Positions 16,931 through 52,150 of a DNA stretch of 64,000 nucleotides are shown in pieces. The position numbers and the translations under genes are program-made. The notes under the pieces are model-generated. The model did not search any database and was not told the DNA's origin. It saw only the letters and a list, made by a program, of their open reading frames with translations. The stretch lies in contig JAYKAV010002464.1 of the NCBI GenBank assembly GCA_035582835.1, positions 124,001 to 188,000 on the forward strand. Reading direction: 5' to 3'. The DNA is from Phoebastria nigripes (Eukaryota > Chordata > Aves > Procellariiformes > Diomedeidae). Within the stretch, counting starts at the first letter, position 1, and every line of letters begins with the position of its first letter.

Positions 16931-19900
16931 ATGGCTACCTTCTTCTCTGACCTGGTAAGTATCTGGTCACTTTTTCTCAGGACTCTGACTTACAAATGAC
17001 AAAGCTAACATAATACTAAAGATCCAGATTCCTTAAAGATTGTAAGCTCTTTTGGGACAGAGACCATCTTTCTCTTCTGCATTTAAACATCACCAAGAAC
17101 AATGGGGCTTGGGGCCATGAAAATCATGTTGTATGGTCTTTTCCATTCAACAAAATAAAATAAAATAAAATAAAATAAAATAAAATAAAGACAAGATAAA
17201 ATAAAATAAATCTAACAAAACTTCTGGCAGTTCCACAACTGACAATGCTACTATATTTTTGTCTTCTGAATTACTGAAAACAATACTAATTATTAAACAC
17301 TGTAATTACTTCCCAAAGTAATGAATAGATTAACTGTACTGCAAGAGGCTAAGAAATTCATGACGTAAACTTTAAAATAAATTACTTTCCTCATTTCATC
17401 CAAAGATAATTAAAATTATCCATCAAGAGTTTCCATAGTCTTAAACAGGGAAGAATTGGTAAGTATTTCTTGCTCCGTTTCTCAACTGCCAGCAAGAAGC
17501 TATTTTGCATTCCTTTTTAAGTATTAAAATTGTTAATTTGTAAGTCTGTTGCAAAAAAAAAGGAAGAGTGAGAAGGTGAGTTCTTAATTTGTTTGAATGC
17601 TTTTGCCAATTAGCAAATACATTGAATTTGAGATGGGATTTTTAAGGAAATTTAGAGTCTTCTGGTCCATAGCTTCTTGGTTCTTGTCATGTGGTAACTT
17701 GGGAAATCCAGCTGTGGACTAATTAAGTAACAAGCTCTTGAAAGACGGACCTAAGAACCATAAAAGGGAGCGTTCTTCTAAGTATCCCCCAGTCCAGCAT
17801 TATTCACACTTGCATTACTTTGTTCCTGCCTGATTGCATTTTCTACCAGCTTCTCTTCATCCAGGCACTGATCTCCAAAAAGCTGTGAGCTCATGAAGTT
17901 CATATCTGACACGAAAAGAACACAGAGCACAGTGTCCTCTATACAGAGATGGTGTTACTGTCCTGGTTTGTGATGTGCTGAATAAAAAGGGAGAGGCAGT
18001 TAAACCGCAAAGGACCCTGAACAGATCCTGACAGGCCTAAAATCATGATTGTCCAAGGTTTGGTCTGCTAGGTGCAGTCTAAGCTGTTTGAGGATAGCTC
18101 CATCTAGCCTTGCAGCCACTTGGAAACAGGATGGATGACCAGTGGTATCACATACCTCAAAAAGGCCTGAGTAGTTACATGTTCTGATTTTCCTTATTTA
18201 CAGTTAAAATTATTTTATTCATCAAAGCAGCCAGCGTATCTCAGTCCCTAATCCTTGACCAAGGAAATTATAGATGGACAGTATCCCCCTAGCCTGGAAG
18301 ATGCCAAGCCCTTCAATATGCAAGCACATACTTTCATGGTTAAATAAGTAGGAAAAATAAAACATTGAGAAAGGAGAAATGATATCCCAAATCAAAGTCA
18401 GGAAAATTTTTGTTTTAATGAAATTACGGGGCTATTCCAAATTATTATCTTCTTTTTGTAGTCCATGACTTTCTGAAAAAGTTGAATGTTAAAAGGATCT
18501 TTTCTTTATTATCCTTAAAGATACGACACAGACAGAAATGAAAGCAGAGAGTACCATAAAATGTTGTTGATTTTTAATGCTGTACTTTAGTGGCATAACA
18601 TTATGGTTTGATGTACATAGGTTACTGCAGATTGCAGACCAGGAAACTGATTCCCTCTTCCCCGCATCCAGGACTGACACCTTTATCCAGCCAACCTGTC
18701 AGATGTTGCAGGCATACAGTGAGAACTGTACTATCAGGAACATCTTTTAAAACTCCTTCTCCTTCTTGCAGGCAAAGTGGTGGATTATCACTCTTATACT
18801 AGCACTTAGTCTTGCTATGGCACTGTGGCTGATGATTGTACTTTGGCAGTAAGTTAGAGAGATTTTGGAAAAATGTTTAAATCCAAGATGATTTGAAGCG
18901 GACAATGCAGGTTTCCAGAGGGGAAGTACAAGTGTGGCTACAAAGACTCTGGCCCTGCACAAAACTAGATTAATGAGAAGCTGATGGAGCATTTTATTTT
19001 TGCTTTGCAGGTTCAGTTCCGGGGACTATTTCAAATGATCTTAGTGCTGGGAATTGGTGGTAGTTTCCCATATGGATTCCACATTTCTGTCATCAACTAT
19101 CCTTCTGTGGTAAGTAGCCATCCCCCTGAGGTTGAAAACACAAAATGTAGAACCTGAGCTCGCCATTCCCCCATAAATTTCAAATTTACTGAGCATTCAG
19201 CTGATACATCTATGCCTTTTCTTTGGCTAACAGTAACATCAAATGTTTAGAGCACTTTTTCTCCTTTAAAGAAGAGAATGGTACTTTCTGTTTTAAATAA
19301 ATTGTTACCACATAGTATACAAGCCTCCAAAGGAAAGCAGAAAATGTGCTTTTAGCATGCTTCCTCAGGAAGCTTACTGACTGATACAAACGTGAAGATT
19401 TTGCAATGTGATCTCAGCTAACTTTTTTTACTAAGAAAGTTAGTCTCAAAAGAAGTCCAATATTAGAACCACAGGCTAGACCTGAAGTACAACAGCCAAA
19501 TAATACAAAGAGATCTTATACGCATTGTCCAGTCAAATCTCATTTTATTTTTCAGCACATCAGGAAGTTTATTAATGAAACCTGGATAGAGCGACATGGC
19601 TCTCCCCTCCATCCTGAGACAATCATGCTGTTGTGGTCCTTCATTGTGTCTGTTTATGGGATAGGAGGATTCCTGGGGAGCCTCTGCTGTGGCTACCTGA
19701 CTACAAAATACAGGAAGTAGGTGTTTCTTGTAACAGCTGGATAGTCAGAAAGTACAGGGAAATACCAAGGTGAACAGATAAACCTCTTCTTGGTTGAAGA
19801 CTAAACTGATTTGGTTTGCTAGCACATCCACCTCTTTCAAGTAGCAAGCAGTCTTTTATCTTGTTTATCTGCTCTCCCCAGTGAACTGTATTTCTCTAAA

Positions 19901-22900
19901 GGATGCATTCATCATCACATTACCGGATCAGTGCCTCTGGGAGCAGCAGTACCTGCCTCATGTTCTCTTCAAGATCTCCTATGACTCTCATAAAGATCTC
20001 CCAAGCCCTACAAACCCCAAAAAAGGAGCTGTGTATCTTGTGTTGTAACATGTTATATGCAGTTACTCTAACCACCTGGAAACCACTGTGTGGAAGATAT
20101 CCTTAAGTGTCAAAGGAGCCTGACTTCCATTTAAATACACTCATTCTGAGGTGATGGTGTTGTATTAAATATTCAGATCTAATCTAATGAAAATATGAAC
20201 AGAATAGAAAAAAATAAATTGCCTGTAACTACGCTGTAAAGATACAATCAGCACCAAACAAATTATCGAAGAGACATCTCTCTTCTTGGCAATCCATTTT
20301 ACTGAAAGTCAGTTCCAAACTATCTTTCCCATTGGATGGAGTAAGGATTCCTCACCCGTCTGGTCTGTTCTCAGTGCCTTGTGTGTAACACCACTAATTT
20401 CATTTGCAGAGAAATTGGCAAACTTATCTACTTGGTGTGACCCACTTAAAGATCTGCTCCACAACCCACTGATCCAGAGGCCCCTCACATGGGTCTCAAC
20501 AAACCATCTTAGCCTGCCTGCAATTGTGTTCTTTCCTATCAGGTAAGTGCCCCCAAGAAATTTCTTGTGGGACACTGCCTCATCCCACACTCAGAGGGTC
20601 TCTCAAGACTGGAAACAAGATCACACACTTCTCCCATGGGTTATTTAACACATGATAACCTAATTGCTGAATCACAGCCTTCTCAATAGAGGATCTCTGT
20701 GAATCCTTAATGTGCGCAAGAGGACTCTTGTCTAGCAAGCATCACGGCAAAACAACTGAGTGCAAAAGACTTTGATTTGAGCCTGAGACATCAGGGTTGT
20801 CAACATACCAGCCCACGATTCACACGGAGTGTCTTTTGAAATATGCCTCTCAAAACTCTTTCTGCCATCTCAGATCACATCCATTTAGCCAAGAATGTCT
20901 TTAATATGAGCCATTCTAGAGTGGGAGCCATGGAGTCAGATTATTTCTGGGGAACAACCTGACATTTTATGAGGAGTTCTAGCCATTTAAAAATGTTGGT
21001 GACAACGTGGGCCAGTTCTTTGAGCTCTTTCCCCACTTTTACTGTGGAAATGCTGATGAAGTGTTCCAACTGTTTAAATTCTAAGCTAAGAAATATTAAT
21101 GAATTCAAATCTAAAGGATCCTGAAATTTTAAAGAATCATTTTGACTATCCAAAGTCAAAATTATTTCAGCCATTCCTCAAAACAGCAGGAATCACTGTA
21201 CCATGCTTCCTGTCACAGCAAGATTAGTCAAAAGAGTACAAGATGTTCTCATTTCACACTAAATTCTTGTGGGCTTTTTTTTTTCAGAAAAAAGTGCCAA
21301 ATGTGCACCAACCTTATCATGCTGGTAGCTGCACTTTTCATGGCCTTCAGTAAAACAGCCAAATCCTTCGAGATGATTCTGGTCGGACGCTTTCTCTATG
21401 GCATTGGTACAGGTATGTGCTCATGCCACTGTGGAGAGCAAGCATCCTTGCTGTCCCAGGATTGTCTCTACAGGTATTGCCATTCTTGGAGAATGATTTT
21501 TAAAAGCGAATATACTAGACACTTAATAAAAGTGAACGATGTTATCCCTTTTGCAAGAAATTTTAATCCAAATACCAGAGTGAATGGAAACAATATAAGA
21601 GAAACTTAAGCTTTTCTCAGTATTTTAACAGTCATTTATCCTCTTCTATGTTAAAGGTTTTTCTCTCAATATACATCCTCAGTATGTAGGAGAGATTTCA
21701 CCCAAGAAGCTGCGTGGATTTACCAACTCCACAGTTGCTGTTTTTCTGACACTAGGAAAACTCACAGGACAGGTTATTGGACTACGGTAAATACACCAAT
21801 CTTTCTATCAGATTACACTAAAAGTAGTAGAAATCTTTCTATAACCTTACCCTCTCACCTAGTCAGCGACTGAGAAACCCTCTCATCTTCCCCAAAACAG
21901 GCCTTAGCTTATGCCAGAAGAAAAGTTTTGGTCATATTTGAGGCAAACATATAGTTTTAAACATAAGAGAAAGAAAAATTAATTACTCATAATCTGATTT
22001 CTTCTTATTTCCACGCCATTTCTACTAGGCGACTTCCCCTTCAAAATTTACTATGCTTACATGAAAAGTCTTAGCAAAATGTTTTGGTCCTGTGGTCAAA
22101 CAGTGGTCAAATCAGTCTCATCAGCTCTCTAGACATTATATTGGATCCTAACGATATTTAGAGAGTTTTTCAAAATGCCAAATAATTTCTTTAAAATTGT
22201 CAGAAATAAAAATAGCCAAATTTGTGAAATTTGCTGAATTATCAATTCAGGTGTTTGCTCCACTGCACCCTTGAATGGAATTTGAGCAATCCTCATCACT
22301 CAGAAAAACTTTCTGAACATTCATTCCATTATTTCAACATAATTTTGTTTCACATACACTTTCCAGGGAGATTTTAGGAAGCGAAGCTTTGTGGCCGTGG
22401 TTGTTAGCATCTAGTGGACTGTCAGCATTGATTCAACTGGTTACCCTCCCATTTTTCCCTGATTCACCATCCTACCTCCTGATACAGAAGGGTAATGAGG
22501 AAGCCTGCAGGAAAGGTAGAGTGTCTACTTTCCTCACTTCATTTGATATGTTAGAGTGACAGCCTCTGTAGAAGACAAGAAAGCAGGGCAGAGCTGTGCA
22601 GCACAGTGCAGTGCCATGGAGTAACAGCAGAGGCAGTTCTAAATAAAACAGTTGAGGTACCTATGGCAATACATCTGTATTAACCTGGGGCCTCACTCAG
22701 TCTAATTTAATCAGTTAAGACAAGAAAGATAGATATATATTAGCATGTCTAACATTTCCCACTTTGGTGGGAACTACTTTATTTCTTTAAAGGGAACAGT
22801 TCAGGCAGTTCATTTTTTATTAAATAAAATGTACTTAAATGTTTACCTTGTTTACAATTAAGTCAACTCAGCATTAGAAAAACATGCCATGCTGACAACC

Positions 22901-25727
22901 AAAGAAACAAAATTCTTCCGTTTACCTACTGCCCCAGACCCAACCAGATCACAGAAGCAGAGAGCACCAACACCACCACCTATGCCAGTGGACAGGCAGA
23001 CTAAAGGGTTTAACGTAACCACTCGTGATGGAGCTATACTGGTAGAATAATCCACTCCCCTCTTTCTCCCCAACAGCCATCAGGAAGCTCTGGGGGGAAG
23101 GCGACCATCAAGCAGAAATTGATGACATTATGAAGGAGAAGGTTGCAATGACAAGCACGAAAACCTTGCGTGTCCTTGAAGTAATAAAAGAGCGATCTTT
23201 GCGCTGGCAACTTTACATTTTGATAACTGTCATGACCACCTTGCAGCTCTGTGGAATCAATGCAGTTGAGTGCTCTCTTTATCCCCAGAATAAGAGACAA
23301 CTCTAGGCAGCATTACAAACCCCTCTAAGTTACTGGCTGTTACACCAGCTTAGAATTGCATCACAATTGCAACACTTTTTTCACAGGTGCATTTCCTCTC
23401 TGCATTTTTCAGATATACTTCTATTCTTTTGAAGTATTCCACACAGCCAAGTTTGAGGAATACCTTATCCCATACGTCTCCCTGGGAGTTGGGTTGTGTG
23501 AATGCTTATCCTCTATACTGTGTGTAAGTCTTTTCAGACTGGAATTTGAAGGAAAAATTTAATGTGGTCAACAATTGTGCTTTTCCTTACTTATAACTGG
23601 GCTCACGGAAGATTTGCATAACCTAAGACACATCTTCCTGCCTCTGCAAAGCCACAGCAGGATAAAAGGCAGCTCTTTTCCCAAATTATTTGCACAACTG
23701 TATGTCTTTAGACTTATTTTTATTCTGCAAAATAATTTTCTGATGTTCTGGATTAGATGTGTGTATGTATGTGTGCACAATTCGATATACACCAGCACGC
23801 AAGAAAGGGAACTGTCTAACAACAGCGTAGGGTTGACTAATAAATACGGCTTCATTAATAATAAATTAGCTTTGAAGAAGCTAATAAAATTCATTAGGAA
23901 CTAAGAGATTCTCAAATGACGTTGATTTCTGACTATTATTCAGATAAGTCTTCTCAGAAGAACACATGGAGAGGAGAGGAATTATTTCATTTGAGAACTG
24001 GGATTTATGATCCGTGTTTTCTGCTTTTCAGAGCACCCTTATAGACCGATTTGGGAGGAAGGTGCTGCTATGGGGAGGATACACGCTGATGTGTTCTGTG
24101 CTAGCGCTCCTTACCATGACCCTGTCACTGCAGGTAAAGAGGCAGCAGCTAGCTACTTACCCAGCATCAGCCCACCTTTCTGATCTTGCCTCACAGGATA
24201 TGTACAAAAACTTGAGTTGATGGCAGAAAATACAGAGCTCTGCTATTCTGTCATGTCTCTAACGGTTTGATATCACTGGTTTCTCACTTTTAGCATCAGT
24301 TTTTCTGGATGCACTACTTCAGTGTTATCTTGATCTTCCTATTCGTTATCTTCTATGGAATTGGACCATGTGAGTACACCAATGGCAATGCTGGGAGGAA
24401 ATTTTTNATCATATTGGTTCGTGACAGAATTGGCAGAGGAAGAACAGTGTAGTCCCATGGAAAAAAGTTCTGGAAATTAAGGAGAGAAGGGCAGATATGT
24501 ACAAGTGGGAGACAGGAAAAGGATACAGACACCTCAAATTTTATTGCTGATCACAGGATCTAAATAATTTAAAATACAGTATCATCTTCTCCAGAGGGTT
24601 TGAGACAGAAATTTCAGAACAATTTTTAAAATACTCAGCTAAAAACAGGATTCTAGGCATTGCCAGGTACATCATAGTAATCATACCCTTCATTAACTTA
24701 GCAAGTTAAGCTTTATGCCTACCAACATGCTTCAGGTGGCACTGACCACAGGAGCCAAAACGGGAGTTGGTTTTATAAATTGCTGTGCTAATAATGGCTA
24801 CCAGTGCAATATGGCACTGCAGAGATCCACTGGCACCAGAAAAAGGATTCCAGTATGTACGAAAGAAACCTNAATTAACAGCTGAAGTCCTAATTTAACA
24901 GATGTAGTCCCTTTCTGGAATCAAGGTCTTTCACCATAGCAGAGGCCACCTGCCAGCAGGCCACCTATTCTGCCTGTCTGCCATTTTCTACCACTGCCAT
25001 TGTGAAGATCTTCATCAGGAGCAAGGAAACAAGTATACCTGGTTTGTGTTTTGCTTTTCTTTTTCAGCTGGAGCCACTATATCTATCATGGTTGAAATCT
25101 TCAGCCAGTCGTTCAGACCATCAGCCTTTCTGATTGTTGGCTGCATCAACTGGATGGGACTGTTTGTACTCGGGATGATTTTTCCATTGATTGTTGTAAG
25201 TGACTTTAACTGGATCCCTCCCTCCAGGCTAATCCACTTCTGAATGCTGACAGGGAGCAAAATAATAGCAATAAATTGCAATGACATGCAAAACTTAGAG
25301 CTCTGTCCAAACACTGAACCTGCTCCGGAATCCCCTAGGCCTGCCAGAGGAGCAGCAATTGGACTCAGGTCAAACGTGGCCACTGGAAACTCCTGGTTTG
25401 ATACCCGTCCTGGTTTATGTGTTGAAGTTTAATTACTAAGACACAGACTTGCACCCAAGGGCAGGGAAATAGAAATAAGATTCTTATTTTCCTTACAGTG
25501 TCTCCCATTTCTGCTTGCAGGATAACCTTGGACCCTTCTGCTTCCTTATCTTTTTGGGAATCCTTGCTTTATCAGCAATTTTCATCTACCTGTATCTCCC
25601 TGAGACCAAGGGAAAGTCAATCATGGAAATAAAAGCAGANTTCAACAAGCTGAATTTTGGAAAAAAAGAAACCTCAGTCACTGAAAATAACTTTCCTAAG
25701 GAACAGTTGTTCTGCACCAAACTCTGA
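16931..25727 (+). CDS. SLC2A11: SLC2A11-class (GLUT11-type) facilitative sugar transporter, copy 2
   Basis: Twelve coding exons: 16931-16954, 19011-19109, 19556-19716, 21288-21412, 21657-21786, 22367-22515, 23077-23264, 23413-23523, 24032-24133, 24294-24369, 25068-25195, 25521-25727. They total 1500 nt, giving 499 residues, each exon equal in length to its partner in the upstream gene. Family marks are INETW at residues 47-51, [53 protein letters not shown] (no helix-10 Trp) and PETKGKS. The usual GRK after helix 2 reads YRKKK and PESPR reads PDSPS, so the intracellular salt-bridge motifs are altered. One ambiguous base (25640) leaves a codon as Glu or Asp. It is a tandem duplicate in the same orientation and probably a 12-helix plasma or organelle membrane transporter of unknown substrate. 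Confidence 0.93.
17152..17209. repeat. AAAAT pentanucleotide microsatellite
   Basis: About ten AAAAT units, with one interruption, in intron 1 of the second transporter gene. Confidence 0.85.
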
Positions 25728-28211: not shown

Positions 28212-28219
28212 TATTTAAA
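28212..28219 (+). promoter_or_regulatory. TATA-like element of the MIF-like gene
   Basis: TATTTAAA lies 116 bp before the ATG at 28328. The canonical MIF gene has ATTAAAA at a comparable distance (103 bp). The surrounding DNA is not CpG-rich, unlike the MIF promoter. Confidence 0.45.
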
Positions 28220-28327
28220 GGCTCCTGAGGTGCTTACTAGCACAGTGGGGTAAGCTATCTTGCAGGTGGGTTAGAAACAAAGCTGTGAACAAGGTGAGTG
28301 GAAAGAAAACCCTCTTGCGATCCAAAG

Positions 28328-31300
28328 ATGCCTAAGTTCATTGTTAACACAAATATAAGCAAGGATAAAGTTCCAGACTCGTTCACTGGTGAGCTTACCC
28401 AGCAGTTATCAAAAGCAATGGGCAAACCAGCACAGGTAAGTCCAGATGCTCAAATGTTTTCTTTATTTAGTCAGCTGTGCCTATGTGATGACCTTCTCTG
28501 AGAGAGACTAATATATGTAATATATATATAGACTAATATATCTAATGACTCACCAGTATTTAGTCTTCTCTCTGTACAAATGTCAAATACTTGTTTGCTG
28601 TAACTTAGCTCTGTTGAGGTCTTGAAACACTTGAAGTATTTAAACTAGCTTTGTATATGATGGTATTCCATGTAGGTCTCCATGTAAGTCAAAATACTGG
28701 ATGTGTGTGGGTATGTATATGCAGGTGTCTGTGAATACCTCTCAAGAATCTAGCTGACTGAAAGCAAGCCTCACCCTCTAACTTCCTTGCAGAGTCCTGC
28801 TGAATATGTGTTTGTTATCTGCCACCAAATTGCCTGTAGCCTAGTGGTTACAGCTGAAGAAAAAAATAAGGTATTCAGCTTGCTTGGACATCTAGCAAAA
28901 ATACCCATGTGACATCCTGCTAACTGTAGTCAAAACACCAGAGTAAAATCTGTTGGGTGGTTTCATTATCAAACTGAGGGATTCTTACCTGCCAAAACCC
29001 ATGGCAATATGCTNCTGAGGGGAAGTACTGAAATACTGTCATTAAGGGTCTCATAAGGCTTTTATTTTCTTAACTAATCCTGAAAGGTCACTAGTGACTG
29101 TATCAGTTGTTTACTGAAGACTGTTGATGAATGTGAACAACAAAGTGAAAGCTTCTCTACAGATCTGTAAGCTTTATAACATGAGCTACTCCTCAGTTGC
29201 TGTAGCAGCAGTAACGTAAGTGAATCAGCTATAGATCTTTAGCAGCTTGGTGAAGTACCCTTTCTACATATTCACTAGCAAATAAGTGTTTTCAGAAAAT
29301 GTTTCTTATTTTACTTTGGGAGTGATGTTTGAAACCTAGAAAGAATGAATTTCTGGTGCCTACAGAGAGGATTCTGAGGGCTCCCCAGCAAACCTTTCTC
29401 TGCCCACTGGGACACCTGAAGTTCTTGAGCAGATCTTTGCTCTTCATGGAAATAAAGTGCTCTGAAATGGTAGTCACCCTGGACTACTTAAGATGGCAAC
29501 AGATCTCTGAACCCCTTAGCAATTGTTTGATAACTGCCACAGGTGGAAGTGTCCTGAGAAGGGAAGAAGGGGGGAAAATGACCCAAAATTAAAGACCAAG
29601 TGGGATAACTGAAAATATTAGAACAAACTTTGGAATGTCTTAAAAATGGTAAGAAGAAAACTGAGCAGCTGGCATGGTTTCGTCAAAATCAGGAACATTT
29701 TAAACAGTCCCACAGCAGTATCTTATGCTCAGATCTAGTCAACCCTCCCAGTAATGACTTGGTAGACTGAGATGTGCAGATGACAATGGCTTGTATGCAC
29801 AGGAGACAGTAAGAATTCAAGAAGATAGTAAGAGATATCTTCTGAAGTCAGGAAGCTTTCTTTCAACAGCTGATTAATAAGGCAAACTGCACAAAAGACA
29901 AAGAATAATTCATTAAAGAGGAAAGGATTTGGGGAGCTATTATGGGTTACAACATGAATAAGAGTTAAGACAATGCTTGGGAGCAGGGGAATTTCACTTC
30001 TGTTGTGCACAAGGTAGAAGTAAGCTTCAGCAGGAGTACTCCATCCAGTTTCAGGCCCTTTACTTTGAGAAAGAGGTAGGCAGATCAGAGACGCACCAAA
30101 GGAAAAACGCTGAAGAAATAAAATAATGCAGGGATCAACAGACATTCTGGCTCTTCTAGGAGAGAAGGCTGAAGAGGGAGGCTGTTATGGAAGAGATGAG
30201 AACACTTTTTTTTTTCTTCCTCGGTGGCATAAGGCAGGAAGCTTAACTTGCAGCAAGACTTCAGCTAGTTCTTGGAGGAAAACTTTAAAAGTTTCTGTGA
30301 CTTCCAGCCACATTCTGCACTGGACTTGCACCATAGATCCCACGAGTGGTGGGATGGTTAATAGTACTGGCACTTCTTTGACCAATTAGAAATGCTCAGT
30401 TCAGCACTGATAATTAATTTCTATTTATTGTTGTATGGCTGTAGACTTTAAAAGACAGTTGTATGTGTTTGGATGTTCTCATCAAATTGATTTGATGTCG
30501 AGTTAAAAAGCCAATCGACCTGGTGAAGCCTGGCTCTACTGTGTCTCTTCCAGACAGATTTCTTCCAGACAGATTGTTTGATGTCTCATAAAGGGGACCC
30601 TCTTTCTCTAGGGACAGTAATGGAGCTCTATGCAATCAACCACTCACTAAACATGTAGGAAATCAATCTCTGTTAAATTTGACCAAAGTTAGTTATCTCA
30701 GGGAATAGTCAGAAGCATGTTTTAGGCTTATAAGCCCTGTCTCCACAGAAAGCAGGCTTAACTGTAAATGGGAGTAAGATTATATTTTTTTCCCAATACA
30801 TGCAGTAGTATAATGAAATTCTTATGTAAAACTGATGTGTTCTATCCCTCTTCAAAAAACATTTTTTTTTTATCAGTCTAGCAAACAAATACTTGCTGTG
30901 GGGGGGGTAGGGGTGTCAGCTGGTGGTTCTTGCATAACAGCTTCTGAATATAAAGTTAGAGGCCAGGGCTGGGATGCAGCTGGAACAGGTTTGTGCATCA
31001 GTGTGCAAGGGATATGTGATTGGACTTAGAAATATACAGGGAACAACAAAGAGATTTTTTGAAGAGGACATGCAAGCTCTTCGTGACAAAGGAGGCAATA
31101 GGAAAGGGAGAGTCTCTTAGTTATAACACAGAAANAAGGAAAGGATTAGGGTGGGCTGGAATGCAGAGCTTTCCTCTCGCAGGAAATAGTACCATTTGAA
31201 AAAAATAGTGACTTTTATTTTTAATCAAATAGGGTTTTTTCTACTGAAAAAACTGTTTCAAACATTTTCAAACTGCTCTAAGAAGAAAATAATCCTGATT

Positions 31301-33595
31301 AACACTTCAGCTTGCTTTTTTTTTTTTTTTTAAATAATAATCTGCTTCCAGGGTAGATGTTAAGGCATATATGTACATACATTTGGCATAAAGTTGAGAG
31401 CACGGGGTGTCCAGCCACGGGAGAACAGGGCCAAGCAAGTGCTACCTCAGCAGGATCTCCTTGGCTTATCCTGTGCTGCTGTGGTCTGATGCACCTTGCA
31501 CCTAAACAACCTGTAAATGATGGCCAAGGCTAATTACCCAGACAACTCCTGGTACTCAGGCTAGCTTGTTTTACCAAGAGGGTTAATTGCTGCTGAGTTC
31601 CAATGATGCACTGCTAATAAACGTGGGTAAGAACAGAACAGAAGCCAGATGGATGCCAAAGGAACTGATCCCTGGATTCCCCCATGTGTGGATCTGACAC
31701 TGTGTATTAGCAGCAGGGAAAATGGCAGGCTGGTCATTAATATTAACATAGATACTTTCTTCTATTTTTCCTGCTATCAAGAACAAAAGTAGGATTAGGC
31801 TGTATTTTTTTTTATGAGGGGGATGTTGATTTAGACCTCTGCTGCGTCAGTTCACATTTACCTCAGCAGGGAAGACTGCAGCAGGAGCCAGTGAGGTGCA
31901 AAATCTCTCTGGAACGTAGGGCAGCAGCAATGCAATTGCACACCCCGCACTCGCACCCGGCCTTCCCGCACAGGCAGGGAGAGCCCGGTGGCTCAGAGGA
32001 GGTTCTGGAGGTATTGCAGGTCACTGAGCTCTTGGAGCACCTGAACTTCCTATCCAAAATTCAAAGTCAATAAAGACGATACTGCAGGGTCCTCCTTCCA
32101 ACAGTGTACCTGGGCTGAGCATCCAGAACCCATCTTTCAGTAGGTAATTGGGCACACTGGGGTTGAAGGTTGCAAGACAGCAGGCAGGGAAGGATCTTTG
32201 CCACATGGTAACTTAAGAACAAGAGTGAAACTATTTGCATTTTAGTAAGTGGTGAAAAGCATCTCTGAGTGCCTAGGACTGCTGCTTTTTTTTTTTTACA
32301 TGCTGCTAGTACCTTTATCTAAGAATACAGCCATTCTGCAATAGATGAAAGAATTGTGATGGCAGTGCCTGTTCCCAAATGGTATGTCATGGGAATGTGG
32401 TTCTATTTCATACCATCTCATCTTTGCAGGAAAATACTTAGGAAGCCTGGAAGTGAAATGAAGTACAGGCAGGAGAATTTCAAAAGCATAATTGATAGGC
32501 ATGCACCTATTTTCACTGCAGTTTAGATACACAAATACCTTCCTGGATTTCAAAACTTTTCCTAACATGGCAAAGGAAAATAACATTCCTTTTTTCTTCT
32601 TCCAACAGTATCTAGCAATACAGATCTCTCCTGACCAGCTGATGTCCTTCGGTGGTTCTACAGACCCCTGTGCTATGTGCTTTCTCTACAGCATTGGCAA
32701 GATAGGGGAGCAGGAGAACAAGGTCTACTCCAAATTGCTTTGTGACCTGCTGAACAAACAGTTGAAAATACCATCTGACAGGTGAGCTCACACAGCAACT
32801 TGTCTGACATGACTTTCCACAGACTAAAACTATTAATCCCAGACTTGTCCTTTGCCATTCTTCTGTTAACATTCTGCCTGAAGAGGCTAAATGCCAAGTC
32901 AATAGAGCAACTCTCCAATTAAAAATAGGAAGGGAGCAATTGCATGAGCTGCAATGCCAATACCCAGAAGCTGTAAAATAATCTCTTAGTTAAAATGATG
33001 GAGGCTCAGGCACTGCATGTACCCGCAGATCTCATATGTGCAAAAGCCCAGGTAGAGACACAATAACCTGATGTTATTAAATTGATAACTTGAGTAANGT
33101 AACAACACTTCCCTACTGCCTGTGGGGTACAAGTGGAGGTCTATTACAAAAGCTTGCACTTACATAAAAGCATTTCTAGTCCTTTTCCTGAAGGTACACC
33201 AATCTGCTCCAGAAATGACTGTAAATAAAACACAGCCTCCTGAGATCTCCTTAAAACAAGAAGTAGAAAAACACCAGGAACTCCAGAATGCAAGTAGACA
33301 AGGCATTAAAAGAGGGGAGGGGGGTGTGGAATATGCAACACTTGAACATGCCTGCCAGAACTTGCGAAAGGAAATGTGTAACTTGCTGAGATGCAGTGCA
33401 GGCCTGAGAAGTGTAAAGCCCTGCGGGACAGTCTACAGCATGGCTGTGTATGTCCTGCTGCAGGAACACCCTGGCCAGCCTGCAGCACTCTGCTCTCAGC
33501 AGCTAACGGTGTCTGTCTTCCCTTTCAGAATCTACGTCAGCTTCTTCGAGATCAGTGCTGGCAATGTAGGCTGGAACAACACCACCTTTGCTTGA
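28328..33595 (+). CDS. MIF-family tautomerase/cytokine paralogue (MIF-like)
   Basis: Three exons, 28328-28435, 32609-32781 and 33529-33595 (108, 173 and 67 nt), exactly match MIF exon sizes and phases and encode 115 residues. The family's catalytic N-terminal Pro follows Met1. Numbered from that Pro, Lys32, Ile64 and Tyr95 of the pocket are kept, as is a CXXC motif (CAMC, 57-60) and the NVGWNN tail. Asn97, which lines the tautomerase pocket in MIF, is Ser here; Tyr98 is Phe and position 99 is Phe. There is no signal peptide, as is usual for MIF's non-classical export. The open frame is intact with an AATAAA at 33749-33754, so it looks functional. It is a tandem copy upstream of MIF with a much longer intron 1 (4.2 kb) and no CpG island, suggesting restricted expression. 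It is not DDT; the sequence is clearly MIF-type. Confidence 0.92.
30546..30575. repeat. Perfect tandem duplication of 15 bp
   Basis: Two adjacent identical copies of TCTTCCAGACAGATT in intron 1 of the MIF-like gene. A small, probably recent slippage duplication with no evident role. Confidence 0.8.
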
Positions 33596-36500
33596 GGTGC
33601 CCTCAGGTGGCAACAGCTTATTCCTGAACCCTCACTGTGGCTTTTGAACACTGCAGTTCTAGTCATGTTACCTGTATTTGGCACAAATGTAAAAGTGGTG
33701 CATTAGTTGCTGCTACCCAGTGCCGTTTTAACATCTTGTCTGCTGCTTAATAAAAGTAAAAATCCAGCAGGAGCCTTAATGACAGACTGTCTTGTTATTC
33801 TGGAAAGGCCTGTGGTTGAGATGGAAGGTGCTTTCTCAAAATATTCTTAACAGAAGCTTTTCTTTTTTAAAACAGTTTAGTCCTTTGTGTGAAGATGAAC
33901 ACTCCATTTGGGTATACCTTTGCCCTGTTCATGCTCAACAGCCTGGCCAAATTTATACAGAACTATCTTGACCTGATTTCAAAATACATGTAAGTCAATA
34001 GATGTGGCTGTCAATGTGGTATATGGCCCTCCCTTCAAAAGTAGGAAAGACATGATTGCCTCTTATTTAAAAGGGATGGATTGCAGACCAGGTCCTCCTT
34101 AGATCTTAACACTACATGGACCTCTAGCTGCTTAGTAGAGAAACTTGTGCTGCAAGAGTCTCCCAGGGCTCAGGCTAGGCAGAGGGAGTAAGTGGAAAAA
34201 CCCACTGTTCACTGTTCTGCCCTCCCCTTTTCATCCATTGAACAATTTGCAGTGACAGTGAAGATTAGAGCACAGCTCAAAGTGAGGCAGAGGCACAGTG
34301 AGCCATTCCCAGAGGCCAAAGTAATGAATTAATTACAAAAGGAAGATTTCCATATAAATATTTATTATTCAAGCCCTGGGTCAAATAAGAGCATTTGTTT
34401 CCAAAGTAAAATAGAAAGATTGAGTACAGATCTGTTTCCTGAATCTCTGAAATTAGGTGTATTGTGACTTTTTCTTTCTCGAAGAACAAACCCATCCCAC
34501 CCCTCTTCTGAGCTCTATTGTGAACATCCCATTTTGTCCCTATCACAGCTTTGCTTTGCAGCCACAGTCTTTAAATACAAGCCTGTACCTCAACCTGCAA
34601 AAATGCTTTGTTGAGATAACAAATAAAAGCTGTTTTGGTGAATCAAAGCAGCACAGCCAATGAAGCAACATGCTACTTAGCATCTAAGTACAGTCTATCT
34701 TATTAAATATTTTTCATTCTACTTAATGCCTTGCAGAGCTGCCCAAGGAAGGAAGACATGGCATGAGGTAGGTAGTCTTTTGGCAGAATTGCTTGTGGAG
34801 AATGGCTACGAAGCCCATAAACACAGCAGGACCTTCCATGTGGAGGCAGTTTCCTTCTCCAGAAATCAGTCTGCTGCCTTCATAGAGCCACCTGCTCAAA
34901 GAATGCTGGCTCTGCCTGTTCTTGCAGCCACAGCACCAGCATTCTCTGTTCTCCTGGCTCCTCCTCCCTGGTCCAGTTGCTCTGTGCTCAGGTTTTGACT
35001 GTGATGCAGGTGGGTATGTACAACTGCAACCTGTGAATGCCCCAGCTCTGCTATTTGCAGTCAGCCTCCAGGAAAGGATTCTGCCTGCCCCACATACCTT
35101 CTGAAGCCCTTCTATGCTAGATGCTTTCAGACTTACTCTCAGAGCATCCAAACCCTGAAATTCCTAAGGTACCTCATGGTACGAGTACAATTAAGACCAC
35201 CTCTACTTGCTAACAATCCTTATACTCCCTAACAGGGAATGTAAAAGCTTTCTTTGCCTCTGTCTCTGGCACATCATTAGAATGCTCTTCGGTATATTTC
35301 GGTAAAACATCTTACCGTTCAGTTTTTTGCTCTTAGACACATTGCTTCATTGTTCTTATTTTAATCACAAGCAATTGTGTTTTAAAACAGATGCTGTGCA
35401 TCCGGAAAATGTATTATGAATGCATGAGTGTGGAGCAATCCCATGAGGGAGGGGTGCATACATACACACTGGTACTTGGTTAACTTCTAAAAATGCATAT
35501 TTAGAAGGTATGAAAATGTATGTGCTGTTTCTTCCTTAGTCAAGGGGGCAAAGGAGAATGAAATTGTGGANGTCTTTCCATTGTGTGGCAGCATGACCAG
35601 GGTCTGTCGCTTTGGGCCTGGCAGGCCACAGAGCAAGCACACTGGTAGTGACATTGCTCTCGAGTTTTTTTCCCTGCACTGCCAGAATTCCCACCCTACC
35701 TCCGTGCAACAACTCTGGGAGGCAGGAAGGTGGGAGGAATAAGTGGCACTACGTAATGGCAGGGAGCTGACGATATTAGTTCTTAATAGCACTGTTAATC
35801 ACTAAAAAAAAAAAAGTGCTCCAGTCATGCCAGTTCTCAGTGTTATAGCCTGTGCCACTCCAAAGCGTTCCCATAAAATACCATCCCTTATTCTTTGTTC
35901 AGGGCTGTGTATGTTTACATGTGTAACATGTATGTATGGTCAAGCTTTCTAGTCGCAGCAGCACTGGGACTTTGTTAAAAATTAACACGTGCTCGATTCC
36001 TGTGTGTAAAATGTCTGTGTGAAACAAGCTATGGGCCTGATCCTCTTTAGTCTTCTATGAGTCATTTCAAGCAGCATAGCAGAGAGCTACGCTGCAGCCA
36101 CAGCAGTGTAAGAGGCAGGGTGGGGAGTTGTGCCCTCTGCAGCCTACGTGCATGGCATCACACAGCCCAGCAGAAGGCTCATCTCTCAGGCTGCCTCTCA
36201 CCTCCGAATAGACACGCACCATTTCATTTCTAAGCAAAAAAAGATCACTTCTGCCTTTTTCCAGTAGAAAAATATGATGTGAAAATGAGGATGCTGAGGA
36301 GTAACAGCTCACTTTCAATTTGACTGAAAACCGTTAGAGAATAATTAACATGCCAGCAAGTCAGAGGTTTCTGCTTACATTGTGTTAAAACTATGCACAC
36401 AGTAAAAAAAAAAAAAANACCGTACAAATGTGCCTTTATTTTGCAAAAGAAAAAAATTCCCTTCGGAGACAGGGCAAGTATCCCTTTTTGCAACTTCCAA

Positions 36501-36949: not shown

Positions 36950-37470
36950 ATGCCCATGTTCGCCATCCAGACCAACGTCTGCAAGGACGCCGTGCCCGAC
37001 AGCCTGCTGGGCGACCTCACCCAGCAGCTGGCTAAGGCCACCGGCAAGCCCGCGCAGGTGAGGGCGGGCGGCGGGGCCGGTGCTGCCGGAGGCGGAGGGC
37101 CGCGGCGGGAGCGGGGGCCTCCCCGGGATGGGACCGGCTGGGCTGGGAGCGAGGCGAGCACGTGCGCGGNGCCCGGTGCCGAGGGGAGGCCCCGGCGGGG
37201 CGGCTGCGGGGCTGTGCCCGCTCTCTCGGCCACCCGGGGCGGAGGGGCCGCGGCCGCCGAGGGGAGCGTCTGCGGACACAACTGCGGGCCCCGCTGCTCC
37301 AGGGGAAAGGGCTTGTGCCCATTCACCCCTCCAGCAGCCCTCGGAGGGAGCCGCGGCGCGGCGGCAGGCCTCCCGCTGCCTCCGTCTGCGCTGCAGCCTG
37401 TCCCTAGGCCGCGCGGCTCCCGGAGGCCATCGGCCTGCCCGGCCGGAGCAGTACCTGACCTACAGGAAGC
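36690..37470 (+). promoter_or_regulatory. CpG island promoter of MIF
   Basis: A GC- and CpG-rich stretch spans the 5' flank, exon 1 and the start of intron 1. ATTAAAA at 36847-36853 could be a weak TATA element about 100 bp before the ATG, and GC boxes lie just upstream. This fits a constitutively expressed gene. Confidence 0.7.
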
Positions 37471-39218
37471 TCGGTGCTCGAGTAGCTACAACGCCGGAGA
37501 TTTGTCAACGCTTGTGCCCGGGAGCCGGGATTTCAGCCGCGGAGCTGTGCCAGCGGCATGCTTGGGGGAAGGGGCTGGTATCTGCCAGGCCAGTGAGTCT
37601 CTGGCGAAGCAAAGTAACAGATACTGAGCTGGGCTGCTCTCGGTTATCCCGGGATCGGATATGGCCCCTATTGGGCCAGACCGCTGCAGCCTGAGAAGTC
37701 GAAGCCCGATAGGGCTGAATTGCAGACAGGCTCTTAGACAGGCCTGGTGGCTCAGTCAGTGATTTGAGGGCGTGAATTCTGGCATGCAAATACAGTTTTA
37801 AGGCCTTTATCTCCAGCCGCATGCTCTTTACCCCGTGCAGCGACGGGCAGGAGTACCCATCCCGCCTACGGCTTTGTACGAACACAACCTTCNTTCCTAA
37901 AGCTGAGAGCCAGGCTCGGGGGGATCCCCGCAGCATGCACTGCCATGCCACCCGTGTGGGCTGCAGTGCCTGAGCCTTGGAAGGGTGCAGAGGGCAGCAC
38001 TGGCAAGCTGCCTGGGCTGCAATGCAGCACACAACTGTGCTGTTTAAAGTTGGTACCTAAAGCAAGTTTGTATCGGGAGAGGGAAGGTGAGATATCCTGT
38101 AACTGTTTGTTCTCTTGCGGCAGTACATCGCTGTGCACATCATACCTGATCAGATGATGTCCTTCGGGGGCTCCACTGATCCCTGTGCGCTCTGCAGCCT
38201 GTACAGCATCGGCAAAATAGGAGGGCAGCAGAACAAGACTTACACCAAGCTCCTGTGTGATCTGATCTCTAAGCACTTGCATGTATCTGCAGACAGGTAA
38301 GGCTAGGACATGATGTTATTAACCTTGTTCACCTGGCTCTCTGAAACTGTTTTGAAAAGTTAATTTAAAAAAACAAAAAGCCAGGAATAAGTCCATGTAT
38401 TTGAGAAAATACAAAGTGATCATTTGCAGCATTTTCATGTCCAGTTAAGAGTTTGATGCCTACGTCTTTCCCTTCAGAGTCCTCTGTTAAATGGCTTCCT
38501 GTTCTCAGAGTAGGGAAAAATNCCAGAGGACTGACAAGTTGTACAGTGTGTTTTTTGCCACTGAGGTGTGATGTCCTCTGGTGATGGGAGGCTGAAAGCA
38601 CAAGGGAGGAGCAGTACTTTGCCTGTCAGCTCCAGCCTGTTAAAAACCAGCAGGCTGTGAACAGCTCCCTCGCAGGCTGCAGAGCCTTGGGAGAGTGTCT
38701 GCGTGCAGTGGTGAAGAACGGGAAGAACCTGCTGCCACTGACTGCTGGGGTTGAAAGGGAGAAGCGCAGAACCGGCCCTGAGGGCCTGCTTGGCTTTCAT
38801 AAGGCTGCCTGTCTGACACGTGTGAAGGACTACAGTGCTTGGAAACAAAAGGTTTTGATCTCTGGAAGTTCTTGACAGGCTGCTAACCAAAAGCTGTCTG
38901 GTGTCTGGACAGTCCCTGACTGAAGAAGAGTGTGTATTTTAGAAAAGAAAAAAAGTACAGTTCAAGGGACTCTGAGGAATATTGATTGTTTGGAGGCTCT
39001 ACCAGAGAAGATAGCTAGCTTTCAGTAAAATTGAAGCTTGAAATTTCTTCTGAGGAATGGGAAGCACTGTCCCCTGTCCTGTTGTCCTGTCTCACTCATA
39101 TCAATGAGTTAATAAGGTCATTGTTTGTGTCTTCCTGTGCCTCTTCTGCAGGGTGTACATCAACTACTTTGACATGAATGCTGCCAATGTGGGCTGGAAT
39201 GGCTCCACCTTTGCCTAG
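36950..39218 (+). CDS. MIF: Macrophage migration inhibitory factor
   Basis: Exons 36950-37057, 38124-38296 and 39152-39218 encode 115 residues, the usual MIF length. The start has an ideal context (GCCGCCACCATG). The protein is a homotrimeric cytokine with phenylpyruvate/dopachrome tautomerase activity and acts through CD74. Numbered from the catalytic Pro after Met1, pocket residues Lys32, Ile64, Tyr95 and Asn97 are present, as is the CALC redox motif at 57-60; position 99 is Phe where human has Tyr. No signal peptide is present, consistent with non-classical secretion. The gene lies between its diverged paralogue upstream and DDX51 about 0.8 kb downstream. The product is assigned from near end-to-end similarity to vertebrate MIF. 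Confidence 0.97.
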
Positions 39219-40640: not shown

Positions 40641-43600
40641 GGAACGAGGAAGGAAGAGGAAGAGGGAGAGTGAAGAGCAGTCCTGTGCGCAAGGACAGAA
40701 GAAGCTAACGAAGAAACAACAGCCTCGCAGCTCTTCTGAAGAAAGGGCGGATACTGAGGAGGCAGCAGATGGCAGCACTCCATCGAAGCACAAGAAGAAG
40801 AAAGAAAATAGGAGAAAATCAGAAGTGCCTCAAGAGAGGAATGAAGCAGGTAACGATAAACTGGGGTCATTTTGGTCGACAGTTCTCAACAGAGGAGTAG
40901 ATGCAAGTTGCCCTTTGAGTAACTTGCCGAATTTAACTGATGGTAAATTTTGTTTTCCTCTGCTTAATATTTTCCCAAAGTAATTCTTTTTTTTAGGGGA
41001 AAGCCCCATACTGCAAACTTCGAGGATCAGTTTAGTGTAAGGGAAGGCGGGAAGCGTGTCATCTCAGTCTTCAGTTGCTTTCATACCAATGAAGGAATGT
41101 TTGGCTTTTGCACTTGGATTTAGGAAGAAAGAGGAGCTTGCAAGTTGTTGCTTAAGTCCTACGTTGTAAAATGTTCCCTACATCCCTTTTCTGTAGCACA
41201 TTCTGACCTGTAGCTTTGTATTCCTGTTATCCAAATTCCAGATTCTGAAGAAGACATCAAACAACAGGAAGACAGAAGCAACCTTAAAAATAAGTCTTCT
41301 AAAAGGAAGAAGAGAGATGAGGAAACAGAGGGAGCTGAAACGAGGAAGAAAGAGAATGGTGAAAGAGCTGAAGGAAATCAAAGCACAAAGGAGGACCTGT
41401 CCTTAGTAGCCTCAGAGGAGGAGGCAAATCCTCCACCCTCCAGTTTGGTGGTTCTTGGAGACTACGACAGAAAGCCAGTGCAGAAGGTAACTAGCTTGAC
41501 TGAATTTTGATGATGGTCAGGAAGGAACAGGCATCCTTACCAGCTTATTTTACGTATGGCGTTGCCTGTTTGATGGCAGAAACATTTTGTTATTCTTCTT
41601 TCCTTCACCTCAGGTTCAGCCCTTCTTACCACAGTGGCTTGCTCAACCCAAATTAGTGCAAAAACGTATCAAAGATAACCTAGTTCCAATCAGAGATGTC
41701 CCAGGAATTCATCCCAGGCTGTTGAAAAAGCTGCAAATGAATGGGATAGAGTCGTTTTTTCCAGGTACCTTGATAGTGCTTTTGTGTCTCTCTGAATTGA
41801 CTTACATAGTTCTTGCAGTCTGTTGCTGTATATTTTATGTGGTCAGTGAAGTAAAATATAGTGCAAAAACAAGTTTAATGCATCAAAGTGGTCGTACCAG
41901 TTTTAACCCTTCACTGTCAAACCTTTGTCTAGGCTGAGTAATTGAAATCTGTTATCTAGTCATAAATGCAGCTCCACAAAATATAGTGGCTTGAAGTAAT
42001 AGCTCACAGCTGCCAAAAGAGGGAGGTCTTACTTGTGTCCTCCCACTTTCCCCCCTTATGCCAGGCTTGTGCTTTAGTTCCTTACCTTCCACCATCCCTG
42101 CTTCTAATCAGACCTCTGTGGGAGCCTGTTCAACTCATTAAAGCAGCAGAAAACTGTTCAAGCAAAAAAAGCTGTTAGTTTTCCATTATTTTACTGGTTT
42201 TGCAGACAAGTACAATAAGCGTCGGCTCCTAAATAAGTAGAAAGCACAGCTGGAAGCAGGGATAAGGAGAGGAAGAGAAGGGAAGAAGGTGGGATCTCTG
42301 ACCTTCAGCCAATTACTTGGTCCAGCTGATCCTGGAGGCTTAGACTGTATCAGAGACTCATCAAGGTTACATTAGAAAGCCAGCATGTGTCTTCTCTTTT
42401 TTAAGTATGCTGTTACATAATGTTTTAATGTAAATGTTATTGCTTATTTTGTTCTGGGAGATCTTAACAGGTTGCTGATAGCAACTTCCTGTGTTTTCTC
42501 ATAAATCAAGTCCAGCTTATGGCACTTGGTAGTAGATAAATCAAGCAGTGTCATGCTCTGTCTGGTAGAGATGGTGTCCACTGAAGTCATACATCATATG
42601 CGTAACTGGGTATGGTCTTGTCACAGAGCTAAATCCCCTGGCTGCTAAACCTCGTAGATAAACCGAAGTTGGCCAGTTTGTCAGGGCTTGTCATGGGACA
42701 GGGAAAGGAGAGAGTTCATGCATGACAGCCAAAGCTGTTGTCTGTACAGGACTGTTTGCTTCAGTCCTTGTGTACTCTCCTGCGGTGAACTTGAATGACT
42801 CCAAAGCCTATAGGAGTTGTGTGTTTTGCTCCTTGGCAGATAAGGCTGCGTTGCCATGTTGCGTATTCTGTGTTTATATAAGAGTAGTTTGTACTTCAAA
42901 GAAAGGTTGCTTACAGACAAATACTCCTAGGTTTTAAATCTGCCTGTTGCCATCCTAACATGAGAACAAGAAGACAGATATGAGTTGAAAAACAATATTT
43001 AACACAGTAACATCCTAGCTGAGCACTAGAAATAGCTGAATTCTTGGAGAGGGGAATCTCTGTATTCAGTGCTAAGCTCCCATGAGTGAACAAGAACCAG
43101 GTAAGACCAGATAGCATCTCTATTAACAACTGGTTTTGATTTCTTCCTCTCTTATGTCTGTAGCAACAACAGCACAGATGTGGAAACAGATTCATTGTAT
43201 ATAACTGCTTTTCTGGATACACTGGTTTTAGCCCAGTTAACTCTGTAGTTAATGTTTGTTTCCGGTTTTGTTCAGTTCAGGCAGAGGTGATTCCTGCTAT
43301 TCTACAGAGTGCATCCAATGGGTATTTGATGGGGCAGGGAGGATACCGCCCCAAAGACATCTGCGTCTCGGCACCTACTGGCAGTGGTAAAACCCTGTCT
43401 TTTGTCATACCCATAGTACAGGTGAGTTTACCCCCAGTGAAATATCTGTAGGGAAAATGCTGGGGTTGCTTTTGTTCAAGCGAAACCTGAACTTAGAAGT
43501 AGGTCAAAAAGCTGAGGAATGTGGGGCTGCAAAGCAGCAGATTTTTAGCTCAGAGCTGTCTCAGGGAGCTGTACGAGTCCCCTTCATCTCAGCATCCCGC

Positions 43601-46600
43601 TCCTTTTCTCAAACAGGCACAGCATGAGGAGTTGGGAGGATGGAGGGGAGTAAAATGGAAACAAAACTCATGAAGATATGCCAAGCCCATCTCTTCTCAC
43701 TAGGTTAGATACGAGAGCACCTTTCTCTCCCTACTGCTTTCAGGGACTCATTTGGCCTTTGTTTTGGCAGGTTCTGCTAGATCGAGTAGTTTGCAAAGTA
43801 CGAGCTCTGGTTGTTCTACCCACCAAAGAACTGGCACAACAGGTATGTGGTGCTTCACCTTTTCTCTGAGCAGAACTGGGCCAGGGGAAAAGCTGGTGCA
43901 ANCAGTACTTTGCTTGGCTGTTCTGTGAAGCAGGTTGAAGACCTGTCAGTGGGTTTGATGCTGTTAGCATAATGGAAAGTATTACTTTAAATGATTTCAT
44001 TGTGGCTAACAAAGCCCATCTCTTTGCAGGTGAGTAAAGTGTTCAACATTTACACTGACGGGACAGGTCTGAAAGTTGTTTTGATTACTGGCCAGAAATC
44101 TTTTGCAAAGGAGCAGGAGATGCTTGTCCAGAAAAAGTAGGTTAAAAGGTCTTTTGATAAGGTTTATAGAGATTGTAAACTATTTAATCTCAGTAAGCAG
44201 AGGTCAAAATATAGGCTATTGCATCACACCATCATGCAATAATGATTTTGGATAGTGGGTTTATATGCTAGACGCTGGTTGTTCTGTCTTTGTCAAAGTG
44301 CCTGCTACTACTCCTTTTTTGTGATTGTTATGTTTTACTACATTTTTGGGGTTCTTCACCAGCTGAGTAGAATGCAAACGTTTACCTTATACCCACAGGT
44401 ACAAATGGTTGTTACGGGATTTTGCTGCAACTAAGCTTTTTTTTAAGAGCAATGAAGAATAATGACATTTTTTAAAATGAGGGTATAGTATCCAGCACTG
44501 CCTTTGTGTGCTTTCCAAAGTAAAGTGCATATTTGAACATTATTATTTCTCAGTTAAGTGAATAGTAGGAAAATCTTAAGGTCTGCTGACCAAGGATCTC
44601 TGTTACTTGCTTTATGGTGTAGGGAGAAACTAACTGATGGGCTGCTTGTTCTTTCAGAGTGACAGGCTACTGCAGCCTGGCTGATATTATTGTGGCTACA
44701 CCAGGGCGGCTCACAGATCACATTAGCCAGACCCCAGGGTTCAGCCTGACGCAGCTTCGCTTCCTGGTGAGTCAACTCCACAGGTCTCCCATTTTAGTGC
44801 AAGGTCCATTACAGCTGTAATTCCTGCTTTGTTCTTGCATGGTACATAAATACATATCTGTTGGAACTGTTGTATGGGCCTGGTCTACACTCCAGACTGC
44901 TCAGGCAGCGGTCTTAAGATGAGATGTTTTATTCCAACTCGTGATACCCAAGCATCCACTCACTTCCCCTTCTCTCTTAGCCTCTTGCAAACACAAACTC
45001 AGAGTAAAGCCTTATCGGTCAAGGTCAGGGTAAATTATCAACTGTAGTAGCTTCCATCATATGGGAGTCTGTGCAGAGACATAGTTGCAATCTTATTTAG
45101 GATATGGAGATTTTTATCTCTTATTTGGAGACATGGATTGGATTTATGTGCAGATGAACGTGTGTGTAGTTTGAATGTCAGGCTGGCTACTGAGTCGCTG
45201 AAAAAAAGGCAAAATTCAGTTTTGGGATAGAAACTTCTGCCTTCATTTGATAATGATAATATTACAAAAGGAAAGTAAAAGCTGCCTAATGCTAGACAGT
45301 ATTTAACAAGTAGTGTTTTTCGTCCTTGTGAATTCAGATCGTAGATGAAGCTGACCGTATGATTGATGACATGCACCAGAACTGTCTGAACCAAATTGTC
45401 AAAGCTGCATTCCAAGTAGAAAATGACTCTGGCTCCAACATGCTTTTTCAGAGGACCAAACCAGGACCTGTAACAGCAGCCAGGTAAGGTGCCAAATGCA
45501 TTTCTCTGAACTGGTAGCACAGACACCAGCACCTAGATGCCACTGCCCTGCTTCACAGTACTCCCTCGCAGGCACTCCCAAAGCTTGCTTACTCTGAGAA
45601 ATGTCTGCCAAAGTAAGGCAGCTGCTTTTTCAAATCTTGAAAAAGCAGGCAGTGAACAGCTGATACTAGAGGATGTCTTTTAGACTGAAGCCTAAGTATT
45701 GTATTCTCCAAGCTTTCCTTAACTAGACTAAAGGAGCATCAAAAGAATGCACAGATATTGCAAGTCTGTGATTCGTTTGCACGGTAACTATACTAATGCC
45801 CTCTGGCAAGCTGAGTAATGGATTTGAAGGAAAACCCTTGGAATTATCTATCTGCAGCTGCTGTTTTCATACTGCATGGTAGAGATGTGTCAGAAACTGA
45901 GATCAGCGACCAAGGAAGGAAGGAACTAGCATGAGGACACGGGAAACTAGGATGCAAGGATGTGTGCAGGGGTAACGGATGCGGGTTGTGCAGTTGGTTG
46001 AGAACGCTGATCAGTTCCGTCTGTGAACTCCACCATAAAACAAGGGTGGTAAAGAACCTACAGGAAAGGCCCAGAGCAAGAAAAGAGCACCAAAAAGAGT
46101 TAATTGCTTCCCTCATAACGTCATCTGAAGGCACTTGTGGAGGAGCTCCTTTGCCCCATCCTCAAAGCTCGCTTTCTGTGTGCTATTTATTTCAGCTCCT
46201 GCTATCCTCAGATACCCTTACAGAAACTGCTGTTTTCAGCCACACTGACCCAGGACCCAGAGAAACTGCAGCAGCTGGATTTATTCCAGCCTCGCCTCTT
46301 CACGTCTGTCTATTCTGAGAAAAAAACACTCGGAGATGGAACAGAGACTGAACAAGATACTAATAAGAAATACACACTCCCCGAGGGGCTATCGGTATGA
46401 CATTAATTCTCTTGAATAAATTATACTTGAAGATTTCTTTAACTCTGGAGTATCTAGTTGTGTTTTTACCCTATAAACAAATACGTCTTCCCTATGATTC
46501 TTTGCATTACAGAGGTGCTGGGAGAAAGTGGCTTTGGGAGTATTTATGATCCAGAGCGCTCTACCTTTGCACATTTGTTTTCTCATTACTTAGTGTTCAT

Positions 46601-51807: not shown

Positions 51808-52150
51808 ATGGGGCTGGAGCTGTACCTGGACCTGCTCTCGCAGCCCTGCCGGGCGCTCTACATCTTCGCCCGGAGCAACAACATCCCCTTCGAGTTCAAG
51901 CAGGTGGAGCTGATGAAGGGTGAGCGGGGCCGGGGCGTAGCAGGGGCCTGTGGCGGCGCTGGGGGGGTCCTCCGCCCCCCGCGGCGGCCCCCAGCCCCTG
52001 GGTCAGCAGGGCGCCCAGCTGCTCCCCCTGCTGCGGCGCGCAGCTGCGCTGGGACCCCGGGGCTCCCCTCGCCGCTCCCGGACGAACTCCTCGTTACCAG
52101 CCCGCGCCCTCGCAGAGCCGCGCCGCGGGTGGGACCGGGTTACTCAATCA
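51580..52150 (+). promoter_or_regulatory. CpG island promoter of GSTT1
   Basis: CpG-dense DNA spans the flank, exon 1 and proximal intron 1. Before the ATG there are GC boxes, repeated GGGAC units and repeated GGCAGC units, and there is no TATA box. Confidence 0.65.

Follow-up and report, generated by a model that had tools for sequence, protein, structure and literature searches.

A MIF-like paralogue with Ser97 adjoins MIF in Phoebastria nigripes and has orthologues in birds, turtles, and crocodilians

Results

Two MIF-type genes and their neighbours

The window, a stretch of 64,000 nucleotides of Phoebastria nigripes DNA, carries a MIF-like gene and, 3354 nt from the stop of the former to the start of the latter, canonical MIF (Table 1). 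An intact three-exon MIF-type gene upstream of MIF, with the exon sizes of MIF and with Pro1, Lys32, Tyr95, and a CXXC motif, had been proposed in the preliminary description, and all of this was confirmed. The MIF-like exons of 108, 173, and 67 nt are matched by those of MIF and join to 348 nt, which gives 115 codons and a stop without any internal stop; the residues and the CXXC were all found in the translation. The introns of 4173 and 747 nt have good splice sites, with the donors CAG/GTAAGT and CAG/GTGAGC and pyrimidine-rich acceptors with CAG at the end.

Table 1 Features of the window and the basis of each assignment
Feature	Position	Strand	Basis
SLC2A11-like gene, first of two in tandem (pieces)	2678..11586	+	tblastn
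SLC2A11-like gene, second of two in tandem (pieces)	19011..25694	+	tblastn
TATA-like element TATTTAA, 116 bases 5' of the MIF-like ATG	28212..28218	+	pattern match; putative function
Strong donor-like AAG/GTGAGT	28290..28298		sequence
MIF-like gene, three exons, reading frame intact, splice sites strong	28328..33595	+	sequence inspection
MIF-like exon 1 (ATG; Pro1; Lys32)	28328..28435	+	joined-exon translation, splice sites
MIF-like exon 2 (CAMC at 56-59, Phe60, Ile64)	32609..32781	+	joined-exon translation, splice sites
MIF-like exon 3 (Tyr95, Ser97, Phe98, Trp108, stop)	33529..33595	+	joined-exon translation, splice sites
AATAAA, polyadenylation signal candidate, 154 bases 3' of the MIF-like stop	33749..33754	+	pattern match; putative function
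Canonical MIF exon 1, G+C-rich CpG-island start	36950..37057	+	sequence
Canonical MIF exon 2	38124..38296	+	sequence
Canonical MIF exon 3 (Asn97, Tyr98)	39152..39218	+	sequence
Open frame of 399 residues	39784..40983		sequence
DDX51-like gene (pieces)	41605..49278	+	tblastn
GSTT1-like gene	51814..57261	+	tblastn
Second GSTT1-like gene, only the first exon before the window end	62642..62755	+	tblastn

The CpG observed/expected ratio was 0.21 around the MIF-like start versus 0.83 around the MIF start. The putative MIF-like promoter is TATA-like and CpG-poor, in contrast to that of MIF. The donor-like sequence is located downstream of the TATA-like element but before the MIF-like ATG, and it might give rise to a transcript without coding exon 1.

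The neighbouring genes were placed by tblastn using human query proteins. Two SLC2A11-like genes precede the MIF-like gene, and DDX51-like and GSTT1-like genes follow MIF; Pfam backed three of the four transporter stretches and one of the three GST stretches submitted. SLC2A11 and GSTT lie near MIF in the human locus as well, in agreement with the order in the window. The open frame of 399 residues, with many Lys, Glu, and Arg residues in its later part, gave no Pfam match above the cut-off and was unmatched by tblastn with the DDX51 query; it precedes the DDX51-like exons, and the first exon of that gene may lie inside it. An Rfam search gave no match at the gathering score. As to the transporters, passages of PMC8432899 describe the SLC2A11-type gene SLC2A11B (the pearl-eye gene) as setting eye colour in the pigeon and report relaxed selection on it in birds.

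The MIF-like protein as a member of the MIF family

The MIF-like protein matched Pfam PF01187 with an E value of 1.8e-44 (residues 2-115, positions 1-114 of the 114 in the profile). Because the match is full-length and close homologues occur in many species, chance as the origin of the similarity is ruled out. Furthermore, the predicted structure, a monomer model, shows the MIF fold. The N-terminus reads MPKF, in which Pro stands right after the start Met at the position of the catalytic base, Pro1. Of the canonical pocket set Pro1, Lys32, Ile64, Tyr95, and Asn97, the first four are kept and Asn97 is replaced by Ser; Cys56 and Cys59 are also kept. The proteins encoded by the two genes are identical at 75/115 residues, and dN between the genes was 0.24-0.25, with a saturated dS of 1.45-2.67. 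Thus the MIF-like gene shares with canonical vertebrate MIF the exon sizes and phases, these residues, and the full PF01187 match, whereas it differs in having Ser or Cys for Asn97 and Phe for Ser60, in Glu/Asp69, Glu71, and Ser102, in its start region, and in forming a separate clade, as described below.

Residue 97 across homologues

We compared 240 rows, namely 238 homologues among the matches listed and the two window proteins. The rows were assigned to classes by four marks in exon 2, residues 60, 69, and 71 being among those used for sorting. Besides residue 97, the MIF-like class is marked by Phe60, Glu/Asp69, Glu71, and Ser102; of these marks, those at 97 and 102 alone do not depend on the sorting. 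The MIF-like class held 96 rows and the canonical class 141, the latter including the hybrid models P0044 and P0053, and three rows belonged to neither (two marsupials and one fish, all with Asn97).

Among the matches listed, residue 97 was Ser in 70/77 letters of the MIF-like class. The exceptions were Cys in two crocodilians, Asn in the hybrid model P0027 and in the fish row P0220, Arg in P0102, and the odd-ended models P0113 and P0118. In the canonical class, Asn was found in 134/140 letters among the matches listed, and among the six others a conger eel and a low-quality whale model have Ser. With two rows of the canonical class, that of the conger eel included, carrying Ser97, the residue does not by itself prove a new role. 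The preliminary description had pointed to changes at both residues 97 and 98, and the window MIF-like protein indeed has Ser97 and Phe98 where the window MIF has Asn97 and Tyr98. The weight given to the second change did not hold: canonical-class residue 98 was Tyr in 74/140 letters and Phe in 65/140 among the matches listed. Tyr98Phe was therefore rejected as a meaningful change, and only Asn97Ser is distinctive.

The place of Asn97 in the substrate pocket, which had been put forward as known, agrees with published work. A kinetic study of MIF N97A was reportedly made by Stamps in 2000. According to passages of PMC10208890, hydroxyphenylpyruvate is contacted by Asn97 of MIF, the place being taken by Arg in MIF-2, and CD74 activation fell by at least half in MIF N97A. 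According to passages of PMC3642319, Toxoplasma MIF has Thr where Asn97 would stand, which prevents hydrogen bonding with the substrate. Its authors predict poor tautomerase activity and insensitivity to ISO-1 to be explained by Thr97 together with a change at 106, and cite a similar suggestion for Ancylostoma MIF. By these passages, the MIFs of Toxoplasma gondii and Ancylostoma ceylanicum resemble the MIF-like protein in having lost Asn97 and kept the catalytic Pro, but they carry Thr97 and further pocket changes and are parasite proteins, not vertebrate paralogues.

Orthologues and age of the duplication

Three homologue searches yielded the best 120 of 130, the best 120 of 205, and the best 120 of 296 matches, the last with a turtle-crocodilian alignment as the query. 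Bird proteins headed the best 120 of 130, under the names "MIF-like", "MIF factor", or "MIF"; turtle and crocodilian orthologues came lower down. Most full-length bird rows in that set were 80-96% identical to the window MIF-like protein, two turtle rows 78-80%, and the gharial 72%. The wood stork, the nearest relative among the matches listed, differed at 2/115 aligned positions and the kittiwake at 5/115, a closeness that makes an origin of the window in a bird near the water birds probable. Among the matches listed, orthologues were present in birds (kiwi, tinamou, and rhea among them), turtles, and crocodilians. Homologues in palaeognaths, turtles, and crocodilians led us to reject a recent duplicate or an assembly artefact.

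The MIF-like class accounted for 95 of the 238 rows among the matches listed, including 10 without a named source and one misassigned fish (P0220); the named rows among the matches listed included no squamate, mammal, or amphibian. P0104 and its like have exon 2 between unrelated flanks, and we take them for genomic frames that were never spliced rather than for cDNA. Bird, turtle, and crocodilian database entries under the names "macrophage migration inhibitory factor-like" or "MIF factor" represent the same gene; the names rest on similarity, and a functional description was not found in the literature searched.

In a tree of 48 rows, the 18 MIF-like rows of birds, turtles, and crocodilians formed one clade (support 100/98), which a midpoint root set apart from the other 30 rows; the canonical copy of the window joined bird MIF. 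When 14 fast, incomplete, or unnamed rows were removed, the 13 MIF-like rows of the resulting 34-row tree again formed one clade (100/99), and rooting on fish placed it inside tetrapods. Joining the clade with bird/turtle MIF was not rejected (p-AU 0.249 for 48 rows and 0.283 for 34 rows), nor was joining it with sauropsid MIF (0.162 and 0.116), with amniote MIF (0.449, 34 rows), or a further alternative in the 34-row test (0.348). These trees indicate that the MIF-like gene is a paralogue and not an orthologue of MIF, and the claim of a diverged paralogue beside MIF is borne out by a clade of its own common to the three groups. One clade across birds, turtles, and crocodilians places the duplication before the turtle-archosaur split, i.e., before turtles separated from birds and crocodilians, or earlier. 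That split dates to about 250 million years ago.

In the literature searched, of which coverage was partial and absence is no proof, no description of a bird or reptile MIF paralogue was found. The cross-kingdom survey PMC6826473 nowhere uses "birds", "avian", "reptil", "turtle", or "chicken" in its main text, and the passage of PMC6779731 that gives CD74 as the receptor of chicken MIF mentions no paralogue.

Constraint and erosion in the MIF-like lineage

Pro1, Lys32, Tyr95, Cys56, and Cys59 were all kept in 37/46 full-length MIF-like rows among the matches listed, and at least one of them was missing in the other 9/46. In these 46 rows, which include the hybrid P0027, Pro1, Cys59, and Phe60 were each present in at least 98% and Ser97 in 44/46, the two others being the gharial (Cys) and the hybrid model. 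Ten functional sites were somewhat more conserved than random sites (0.928 versus 0.874; permutation p 0.034), which lends weak support to constraint as judged from the alignment.

Changes at key residues were scattered over lineages. Three cuckoo rows (P0035, P0039, and P0050) have Ile where the catalytic Lys32 belongs, although the protein is continuous in other respects. Cys95 was found in the zebra finch and an oxpecker, His95 in a dipper, and Phe95 together with Cys108 in the rhea, and two finch rows have Cys56 changed. The sea turtle rows P0047 (Caretta) and P0057 (Dermochelys) show Ile-Pro where other species have Met-Pro, so that these two turtles may have lost the start codon and thereby a free N-terminal Pro. 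Both galliform rows among the matches listed are fragments, which may reflect an annotation gap. Over exons 2-3, the window and turtle sequences were 78-82% identical for the MIF-like gene and 85-86% for MIF; therefore the MIF-like gene changes faster. Disabling changes in close relatives, named in the preliminary description as the mark of a recent pseudogene, were absent from the wood stork, the nearest seen, whereas likely disabling ones occur in distant lineages.

In three gene models, P0027, P0044, and P0053, the first exon or the first two exons of the MIF-like gene are spliced in frame to exons of MIF, and P0027 (Corapipo) bears the RefSeq name "isoform X2". In P0102 (Zonotrichia), the last exon is DDT-like in appearance. 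These four models may represent mis-annotation or read-through; for the three hybrids, the likeliest source is annotation around the poorly assembled, G+C-rich exon 1 of MIF.

Discussion

A second MIF-family gene adjoining MIF calls to mind DDT (MIF-2), which adjoins MIF in mammals, as in the human gene order. That the MIF-like gene is the avian orthologue of DDT is nevertheless hardly credible. Its nearest PDB relatives are MIF chains at about 1e-46, with D-dopachrome decarboxylase (DDT) chains only at about 1e-15, and the identity with the window MIF is 75/115; DDT shares with it the MIF superfamily and the N-terminal Pro at far lower similarity. Moreover, Ser97 stands where MIF-2 has Arg98, according to passages of PMC10208890. 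The earlier assignment as MIF-like rather than DDT-like is upheld by these E values and by residue 97. When the 64-kb window was searched for a DDT gene elsewhere, human DDT as the tblastn query clearly matched only exons of the two MIF genes. The phase-compatible exons and the in-frame hybrids P0027, P0044, and P0053 raise another explanation, in which the gene mainly supplies alternative 5' exons for MIF via read-through transcripts. We regard it as improbable: hybrids are expected wherever assemblies miss the G+C-rich MIF exon 1, and an exon 3, a stop, and a candidate polyadenylation signal belong to the MIF-like gene itself, with Ser97, encoded in exon 3, conserved.

More weight belongs to the explanation that the gene is for the most part redundant, that constraint on it is relaxed, and that it is being lost lineage by lineage, with Ser97 tolerated and no new role, although we consider this unlikely on balance. 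The catalytic-residue changes in 9/46 full-length rows among the matches listed, the missing start Met in two sea turtle rows, the fragmentary galliform rows, and the faster change than in MIF all speak for it. Against it stand the survival of the reading frame from a time before turtles and archosaurs split and the retention of Pro1, Cys59, Phe60, and Ser97, an argument weakened in that gene-prediction sources favour intact copies.

We prefer, at a probability of roughly 0.6, a retained third MIF-family gene of archelosaurs in which the catalytic base is kept, the substrate and CD74 contact at residue 97 is retuned, and expression is restricted. The copy arising from the duplication, before the split of turtles from birds and crocodilians or earlier, would have stayed beside MIF. 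Its Met would be removed before Pro, a MIF-type trimer would form, and Pro1 would still act as the base at the subunit interface. Without the Asn97 side chain, p-hydroxyphenyl substrates and ISO-1 would be bound more weakly and CD74 activation would be altered; expression of the gene would be restricted. Somewhat more speculatively, the product might be a third vertebrate MIF-family ligand, not found in mammals, to which the class-marking Ser/Cys97 would give the role of a separate, ISO-1-insensitive CD74 ligand or of a heterotrimer partner of MIF, a possibility we advance tentatively. In a heterotrimer, the shared active sites would be retuned, with Pro1 from one subunit and residue 97 from the next.

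Taken together, the earlier interpretation is partly supported. The MIF-like gene is real and old, and databases already annotate it by similarity; the clade, the residue-97 signature, and the uneven fate of the gene are new here. The vertebrate MIF family is usually viewed as having two members, MIF and DDT, and an old third member would alter the reading of antibody, knock-down, and inhibitor studies of avian MIF. How enzyme activity relates to cytokine activity is a long-standing question for MIF, and the natural variants at residue 97 (Asn, Ser, and Cys), together with the natural cases in which the Met-Pro start or Lys32 has been lost, may serve to separate the two.
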